Below are positions 6,729 through 8,839 of a DNA stretch of 27,794 bases, piece by piece. The notes under the pieces are model-generated. The model ran no database searches. It was not told the DNA's origin and saw nothing but the letters and a program-made list of their open reading frames with translations. Every line of letters starts with the position of its first letter. Positions within the stretch are counted from its first letter, which is position 1. The position numbers and the translations under genes are program-made. This stretch comes from a virus, in IMG/VR virus record IMGVR_UViG_3300025617_000089, positions 1 to 27,794 of that record; one strand, 5' to 3'.

Positions 6729-8839
6729 TGATTCGAGCGTCCGTACAAGTACAATTTCTTGTACCTACGGTTCAAACCGATGATAAGGTTCTGGAGGAAA
6801 ATGTCCTCGTTACCTTTGACGTTCCTGTTTCCGAAGCAAGCTACTTTTACTTAGTTGCGGACACCGAAGAAGACTTCGTAGGCAAGCACCCAGTTCGCTT
6901 CGAAGACGTTTTGTCGCCGGACGTTCTGGAGTATATTTTTACCAAGAGCTTAGGCGACGACATCGCTTACGCGGGCGACTCGACTATTGCGTTCGTCAAG
7001 AAAGCCTCGGCTGACGAAGCGTCTACAAGCGAGTCTTACCATTTTCAGATCGTAAAAGACATTCAAGACAGTCTCGGGGCAACCGACGATTTCTTGGGCG
7101 AAGCTAACATCGACGACGACCAAGTCGCGCTTGTCGTTAAGCCTCGCTACGAGCGCACCTCGGCGGCGGACGACGACACGATTGACTTCGAGAAGAATGT
7201 TGTAGACCCCGTAGAGGCGGCGGCGGACGATAACGTTACGGTTGATTTACAGCGCCCGATTGATGACCCCTATACGTCTGGCGACGAGTATGTTTCTCAC
7301 CTAACTAAGCCTGTGTACGACGACGCTGAATCTGACGACGTTCAGACCGCGCACGTAACTAAGAACCGTGGCGATGATCTTGCTTACGCAGGCGATGCTA
7401 CGACAGCTTACGTTAAGAAAGTTGCTACAGACGAACCTCTTACATCTGAAGAGACCACTGTAAATATTATCAAGGTCTTCTTCGACCACATTGGCGTAAC
7501 AGACGATTTCTACGGCGATGCTAACCCTGACGACGATCAGACAATGGACTTTGACAAGAACGTCAACGTCACTGATAGCGACGCAGGCGTGGTAGATGAG
7601 CAGACATCTGACGTTAACAAACCGTCGGTCGACGTTGCGGGTCTAGTCGAAAAAGCAGTCTACGAGTTCTCCAAACTATCTGAAGAACAAGTTGCGGGCT
7701 TAGACGAAGCAGTCGTTTCTTTCTTGGCAGCACGCGCAGACTTCAGCGTGTTTGACGACTATGTCACTTCCGCCTTTACCAAAGATGTAAAAGAAGACTT
7801 AGGCGCGACCGACGACTTTTTAGGCGACGCCAACATCGACGACGACCAGATTGCGATTGTTGTTAAGCCGTTGCACGACAGACCGAAGGTCGGCGAAACC
7901 ACAACCTACAGTTCTACTAAACCGCGTTTTGACGAAGGTAGTATAACTGACGACGCCCCATATGAGTTAGTAAAGCCCCGCGAAGACGCAGCCGCTACGA
8001 GTGACGTCTACGCAGCGCAAGTCGGCAAACCACTCGCGGACAGTGCTGCTGCGGCGGAGGATGTAACCCAAGCGCTCTCTAAACCTCTGGAAGACTCCTC
8101 CCAGCTTGCAGAGAAAACGACGCTTGGGTTGCAGACTCCGCGGCTAGATGAAGCGACTACGGACGACCAGCTTACTTCTGCGTTTGTTAAAGACGTCAGT
8201 GATAACCTAGGCGCGACGGATGATTTTCTCGGCCAAACAAACATCGACGACGACCAGACGTCACACATTAACCGCCCCGTGGAAGATACGCTTGAGCTCC
8301 CGGAAAGAGTTTTAGTTTCTAGCGGCAAAAGCGTCGATGACGCTGCGCACACCGCCGAGGTAGTGAACGCCGAGGTAGTTAAGGCGGCAGAAGACGAGGC
8401 CGCGTTTGAAGACGCAGTCGGTCTTTCAGCGGTAAAGCCCATCTCAGACTATTTGGGCGTAACCGACCACCTTTCTATTTCTATAGCAAAGTTCAGAGCC
8501 GACGGCCTTCTCGCGCCGGACGAGTCGCTGGTGTATTATTTCCCCTTTGAGGGAATCCCTTCGCAGGAAGACCCCCAAGCCGTTCAGGATCGAACCACTG
8601 TAAATAACTGGAAATCGTTCTCCGATTATGGTACTTGTGTCGAAACTGTTTACGCGTTAACATATAAACGACTTAGTGACACATGCGGGCTTAGTAACGA
8701 GGCCCATACTTTAACGCTAAGACGCGAGTTGACTGAATCTGTACACGTACAGAACAGCGGCTTCGTCGTTATGACAGATTACTGCGACAGCAGTTACTTT
8801 GCCGAACCTTTTGTCGGAGTTGGGCGTGAAATTACATAG
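6728..8839 (+). CDS. Large acidic 18-residue-repeat virion protein
   Basis: The product has 703 residues. After about 72 unique residues, residues 73-605 are about 27 repeats, nearly all exactly 18 residues, beginning K/R/T-P-x-x-D and ending with alternating hydrophobic residues (for example KPLADSAAAAEDVTQALS followed by KPLEDSSQLAEKTTLGLQ). Four repeats are 28 residues, carrying an insert like LGATDDFLGEANIDDDQ (from about residues 116, 255, 358 and 494). The last 100 residues are unique. Asp/Glu are very frequent and Cys is limited to the end. A regular 18-residue register suggests a solenoid or a stack of strands forming a shaft. Its place between a BppU-like domain and fibre genes suggests a tail appendage or decoration. 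No named family recognised. Confidence 0.75.
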   Translation: MIRASVQVQFLVPTVQTDDKVLEENVLVTFDVPVSEASYFYLVADTEEDFVGKHPVRFEDVLSPDVLEYIFTKSLGDDIAYAGDSTIAFVKKASADEASTSESYHFQIVKDIQDSLGATDDFLGEANIDDDQVALVVKPRYERTSAADDDTIDFEKNVVDPVEAAADDNVTVDLQRPIDDPYTSGDEYVSHLTKPVYDDAESDDVQTAHVTKNRGDDLAYAGDATTAYVKKVATDEPLTSEETTVNIIKVFFDHIGVTDDFYGDANPDDDQTMDFDKNVNVTDSDAGVVDEQTSDVNKPSVDVAGLVEKAVYEFSKLSEEQVAGLDEAVVSFLAARADFSVFDDYVTSAFTKDVKEDLGATDDFLGDANIDDDQIAIVVKPLHDRPKVGETTTYSSTKPRFDEGSITDDAPYELVKPREDAAATSDVYAAQVGKPLADSAAAAEDVTQALSKPLEDSSQLAEKTTLGLQTPRLDEATTDDQLTSAFVKDVSDNLGATDDFLGQTNIDDDQTSHINRPVEDTLELPERVLVSSGKSVDDAAHTAEVVNAEVVKAAEDEAAFEDAVGLSAVKPISDYLGVTDHLSISIAKFRADGLLAPDESLVYYFPFEGIPSQEDPQAVQDRTTVNNWKSFSDYGTCVETVYALTYKRLSDTCGLSNEAHTLTLRRELTESVHVQNSGFVVMTDYCDSSYFAEPFVGVGREIT
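8647..8662. promoter_or_regulatory. Dyad site 6, inside the 3' end of the repeat-protein gene
   Basis: TGTTTACGCGTTAACA, 7 of 8 positions symmetric, followed by TATAAACG. It lies in coding sequence 187 bp before the start of the next gene at 8849. It matches all ten fixed positions of the seven-copy family. It may control the downstream fibre genes from inside the upstream gene. Confidence 0.5.

Follow-up and report, generated by a model that had tools for sequence, protein, structure and literature searches.

An acidic phage protein of 18-residue repeats with a conserved C-terminal tag: a probable rod of a tail appendage

The IMG/VR virus record IMGVR_UViG_3300025617_000089 was analysed over a stretch of 27,794 nucleotides (positions 1 to 27,794; hereafter the window) and carries a gene for an acidic 703-residue protein built around a long array of 18-residue repeats (6728..8839; plus strand, as are all parts of the gene listed below; pI about 4.05; 76.6 kDa). 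In our assessment, this protein is probably the rod of a tail appendage, with an N-terminal anchor, about 30 beta-type units and a C-terminal tag docked to the 150-residue protein encoded by the neighboring gene.

The 18-residue period is firmly established by several measures. The identity autocorrelation of the protein peaks at a lag of 18 (0.172, as compared with a top value of 0.132 in shuffled sequences) with harmonics at 36 and 54, and a family-trained cyclic profile HMM scores 3137 bits for a period of 18 versus 2110 bits for 17 and 2489 bits for 19; composition shuffles reach 344-381 bits in this model. The window protein on its own scores 295 bits in the repeat profile, and its best shuffle -3.9. 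Viterbi decoding of residues 73-605 (6944..8542) resolves 27 units, in agreement with the original prediction of about 27 repeats in this segment. The additional claim that the repeats measure exactly 18 residues applies to 19 of the 27 units, but four have 28 residues, two have 19, one has 20 and one has 21, and the repeat register runs past both ends of the block, from about residue 55 on to about residue 682. The last 18 or so residues of the N-terminal segment (residues 1-72; 6728..6943) are thus already in register, and additional, more degenerate units were decoded at residues 611-682 (8558..8773). Against the closest relative, the N-terminal segment is the best-kept part of the protein (92% identical, with a dN/dS of about 0.06), and it is the probable anchor. 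The protein ends with the tag TDYCDSSYFAEPFVGVGREIT (8774..8836), which is common to its metagenomic relatives and to proteins of cultured siphoviruses.

The family consensus of the unit reads K1-x-h3-x-[DE]5-x-h7-x-h9-[ST]10-[DE]11-x-h13-x-h15-x-h17-x. Among 597 units, an acidic residue is found at position 5 in 91% and at position 11 in 93%, and Lys or Arg at position 1 in 70%; positions 3 and 17 are hydrophobic in 70-75%. In the unit start K/R/T-P-x-x-D given in the original prediction, the proline at position 2 is a trait of the window protein and not of the family. Odd positions hold 9.0 of the 11.8 bits of information in the unit and even positions 2.8, and the position profiles within the unit correlate at even shifts (0.34-0.49) and scarcely at odd ones (0.09-0.16); this split and the likeness at even shifts point to beta-strand alternation through the whole unit. 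Between the window protein and L003, the closest relative that is not a copy of it (79% identical over an alignment free of indels), substitutions affect K1, D5 and D11 in only 1 of 36, 1 of 35 and 1 of 36 instances, respectively, versus 5-15 per 36 at the other positions, a pattern that shows purifying selection on these three residues; the dN/dS of the repeat block as a whole is about 0.13. A test for covariation of K1 with D5 or D11 found none, and hence a salt-bridge pairing of these residues is not demonstrated. Beta-type alternation and constraint together argue for an ordered repeat, without specifying which fold it adopts.

The original prediction proposed a three-sided beta-solenoid and named structure prediction as a check, with the absence of a regular fold as a refuting outcome. 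AlphaFold2 gave no regular fold, neither for residues 380-605 of the block (226 residues; 56 repeat-aligned rows; pLDDT 45.8, pTM 0.13) nor for the whole protein (pLDDT 28.7, pTM 0.15), and a Foldseek search with the low-confidence model returned no match at E<=0.001, a result to which we give no weight. The AlphaFold2 failure corresponds to the refuting outcome but, since the protein may be an obligate oligomer and the alignment was poor, it is weak evidence for disorder. The very low confidence would nevertheless suit a different reading, according to which the repeat block is an extended polyelectrolyte linker leashing an adhesin or receptor-binding part, with only the Asp-rich insert described below and the C-terminal tag being ordered. 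The strong acidity of the block (net charge of -78 over 533 residues) fits such a tether, as does phage LSH1, in which a C-terminal stretch of gp34 next to an adhesin is reported to be predicted similarly poorly (PMC13243795). A leash, however, requires neither an 18-residue register nor hydrophobic alternation nor near-invariant K1, D5 and D11 residues, all three of which are present, and the prevalence of hydrophobic residues at positions 3 and 17 speaks against it as well; we therefore judge the disordered tether unlikely.

If the repeat block is ordered, a three-sided beta-solenoid is a plausible inference from the sequence. The left-handed beta-helix has 18 residues per coil, each coil comprising three [LIV]-x-x-x-x-x hexapeptides, and the C-terminal part of T4 gp5 is an example of a triple-stranded beta-helix. 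The even period and the two-residue alternation of the window repeat are compatible with a beta-helical coil of either type, but the window sequence shows no clear hexapeptide signature. The profile similarity at a shift of 6 narrowly exceeds that at the other even shifts (0.49 as compared with 0.42-0.43 at shifts of 2 and 8), but the raw identity at lag 6 is only 0.10, and the window protein has no Pfam hexapeptide match. A far-reaching proposal, which we put forward only tentatively, is that the block represents a new phage shaft fold, namely an oligomeric beta-helix of adjustable length with a core ladder of Lys/Asp/Asp and hydrophobic residues and an Asn/Asp metal clasp every ~6-12 units, which would be mounted on unrelated tail types via the tag and the partner protein. 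A more extreme variant, in which the ladder lysines would form isopeptide cross-links, is less likely because Arg often replaces Lys.

The four 28-residue units were decoded by the Viterbi procedure at residues 110-137 (7055..7138), 249-276 (7472..7555), 352-379 (7781..7864) and 488-515 (8189..8272), and the insert LGATDDFLG-x-x-NIDDDQ ascribed to them in the original prediction proved to be correct. Among 51 such units from divergent phages, a set from which the close copies L003 and L013 were omitted, the insert follows the consensus T-D-D-[FYV]-x-G-[AE]-A-N-[IV]-D-D-D-[QE], its ten extra residues being flanked by D11 and a second, register-equivalent Asp; it is nearly invariant, and nothing else in the family comes close to it in conservation. 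Such near-invariance of an Asp/Asn-rich segment over very divergent relatives is as expected for a metal site, and the N-x-D-x-D spacing with two further Asp residues suggests a putative one; that the inserts act as Ca2+ clasps is a plausible inference. The same 51 inserts with their ligand spacing, as well as the adjoining fibre genes, could also be accommodated by a calcium-dependent solenoid that binds glycans of the host surface through its repeats in the manner of RTX proteins, with the 28-mers as calcium sites. The window protein, however, has a period of 18 with a K/D/D unit instead of the GGxGxDxLx nonapeptides, and it matches neither the hemolysin-type repeats nor any other family in Pfam, including lectins and glycosidases. 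Moreover, the insert is constant among very divergent phages, unlike what is expected of a host-specific binder, and we consider a glycan-binding role improbable.

Scans of IMG/VR uncovered about 16 relatives of the repeat protein besides one identical contig. One of them is 79% identical, while the others share 23-36% identity over the matched stretches. They span 270-1363 residues with the same ends and a varying number of units, and have the 18-residue unit, the Asp-rich 28-mer insert and the C-terminal tag in common with the window protein; units of 20 residues are common among them. No relative was detected in a scan of bacterial genome contigs, and 50,697 phage records yielded no tblastn match to the window protein or to any of three relatives used as queries, probably as a result of low-complexity filtering and divergence. 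In line with the original prediction that no named family resembles this protein, neither Pfam nor the sequences of solved structures in the PDB gave a match to the window protein or the repeat profile. The only PHROGs match of the window protein is a weak one to phrog_12240 (E 2.3e-4), a group without annotated function, and literature searches on phage repeats of 18 residues retrieved nothing relevant. A search of the A3 profile against the PDB returned only Abraxas matches (E 0.03 or worse), which were dismissed as noise, and other weak PHROG matches of the relatives (to a nucleoid protein, among others) were set aside as reflecting composition. The window protein combines K/D/D units, a Y-F-A-x-x-Y-V-G-like tag and a downstream partner gene, the three features by which we propose to recognize a repeat-plus-tag tail module, and the proteins carrying it are, on sequence criteria, an unnamed family.

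The earlier designation as a virion protein is supported by the gene order, which places the gene in a tail module. Upstream lie, all on the plus strand, genes for an SU10-type adaptor (5017..5706), for a homologue of gp81 of the podophage GP4 (5708..6358; PDB 8jov chain G, E 3e-23), which places the repeat module at the tail, and for a 126-residue protein that is BppU-N-like by eye (6348..6728) and has a 41% identical homologue at the equivalent place in Achromobacter phage CF418P1. The gene for the 150-residue partner protein (phrog_5417; 8849..9301, plus strand) begins ten bases past the repeat gene, and fibre genes lie downstream. Beyond the window, at least 14 loci, one of them that of the close relative, have a homologue of this partner immediately behind the repeat gene, with a gap of tens of bases at most. 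The partner profile matches (E 1.9e-6) residues 402-507 and 515-567 in the baseplate hub of HFTV1, a ring that bears the tail fibres (PMC12494034), and the protein weakly resembles GP4 gp80. A 74-residue ORF at 9331-9555 of the window has a weak tail-fibre match, and its homologues in L023 and L028 lie within a much larger ORF. At 18382-20289, the window encodes a 635-residue protein whose C-terminal domain is of the lambda J/Phage_Tail_Tip type (PF09327, E 3.7e-19); the same genome has a portal of podovirus type together with adaptors and an internal virion protein. A relative of the 635-residue protein in L024 sits upstream of the L024 repeat gene. The partner protein occurs as well in the T4-like cyanophage BUCT-ZZ01 of Synechococcus (Kyanoviridae; L044/L056), beside the gp5 baseplate hub; this match was rejected as a relative of the module, since the gene preceding the partner encodes gp5 of the T4 type and contains no repeats.

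Cultured relatives were reached by following the partner gene into phage isolates. In phages Simon, maay_LB1, vB_Ade_ART and BcepGomr, the gene preceding the 150-residue homologue encodes degenerate units and the C-terminal tag (it belongs to phrog_384 in the latter three), and 18-residue units are also present in phiA008, whose protein has no clear tag, and in EBPR siphovirus 1. When all ORFs from about 26 loci were scored with the repeat profile, six ORFs of cultured phages came next behind the training family, and no remaining ORF exceeded 0.5 bits; the top-scoring ones are exactly the genes upstream of the 150-residue homologue, and each of the six outscores 200 of 200 shuffles. Where annotated, the repeat-plus-tag gene of cultured siphoviruses lies right after that for the tape measure. 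The 95-kb record of vB_Ade_ART (MH746817.1) contains two sites each for the partner gene and the phrog_384 gene, one of them 99% identical to maay_LB1, and may represent two phages joined in one record.

That units and tag recur in cultured siphoviruses, fused behind a tail-tip protein and beside the 150-residue gene, indicates a tail-appendage module and not a capsid decoration. The original prediction had left the choice between shaft and decoration open; the rod is now the best-supported reading. A decoration of the capsid or a head fibre might be considered since the major capsid protein gene is located a few genes upstream and other phages do have head fibres of repetitive sequence, but the immediate neighbors encode adaptors, the GP4 gp81 homologue and fibres, and the siphovirus relatives bear repeat and tag on the gene next to the tape measure, which renders this assignment very improbable. 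As far as can be judged from the genes, the repeat module is common to podo- and siphovirus-type tails.

The recurrence of unit, conserved ending and fixed partner gene in many unrelated bacterial viruses suggests a length-adjustable tail rod. The N-terminal segment would anchor this rod, roughly 30 beta-type 18-residue units would set its length, and the tag of ~20 residues would dock to the 150-residue protein from the next gene, with the products of the downstream fibre genes presumably continuing the appendage. The units would join into one continuous beta structure with the odd positions on its inside. A beta-solenoid or triple beta-helix that is oligomeric, probably a trimer, and carries a ladder of Lys/Asp/Asp is the most likely form, and rod length may tune the reach to the host surface. 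Repeat-built rods can set the reach of a phage through a capsule or S-layer; the present family occurs in podo- and siphovirus-type genomes without a Pfam entry or functional annotation. Its defined unit, tag and constant partner gene make dozens of unannotated virion genes recognizable, and cultured Achromobacter and Burkholderia phages are places where fold and position can be solved.

Several known systems resemble parts of this module. The gp34-gp35-gp36 module of phage LSH1 may be comparable, as it is reported to combine a phage adhesin, a poorly predicted stretch and a neighboring GP4-fibril-like gene (PMC13243795). Two stretches of the HFTV1 baseplate hub gp44 (9h4p) are of the same type as the partner protein; the likeness concerns the partner and not the 18-residue repeats. 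The tail of the podophage GP4 (PDB 8jov/8jou) and the Bcep22-like phages are related through the gp81 homologue and the weakly gp80-like partner, but the Bcep22-like relatives have no 18-residue repeat gene at this place, and another repetitive gene follows gp80. In L053 (8061-8936), L055 (8046-8900) and L054 (8020-8532), the product of this gene is rich in Ala/Gly, shows an alternating pattern and has an 'ALNE..N'-like motif conserved at its N-terminus. No convincing PDB match was obtained for the L053 copy, and this protein is possibly an analogous rod. Achromobacter phage CF418P1 (WNO49172-49176) has the same gene order, with two adaptor-type proteins, a BppU-like protein, a tagged protein at the position of the repeat protein and the 150-residue partner; its tagged protein comprises 177 residues, and its degenerate repeats, unlike those of the window, do not rise above shuffles in the profile. 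The phrog_384 proteins annotated as 'virion structural protein' (in the siphoviruses BcepGomr, as gp17, and maay_LB1 and vB_Ade_ART of Achromobacter) carry a few degenerate units without 28-mer inserts behind an N-terminal tail-tip domain of ~250 residues that is absent from the window protein; only the C-terminal part is common to both, where 18-residue units lead into a YFAEDYVG-like final tag, followed by the 150-residue gene.
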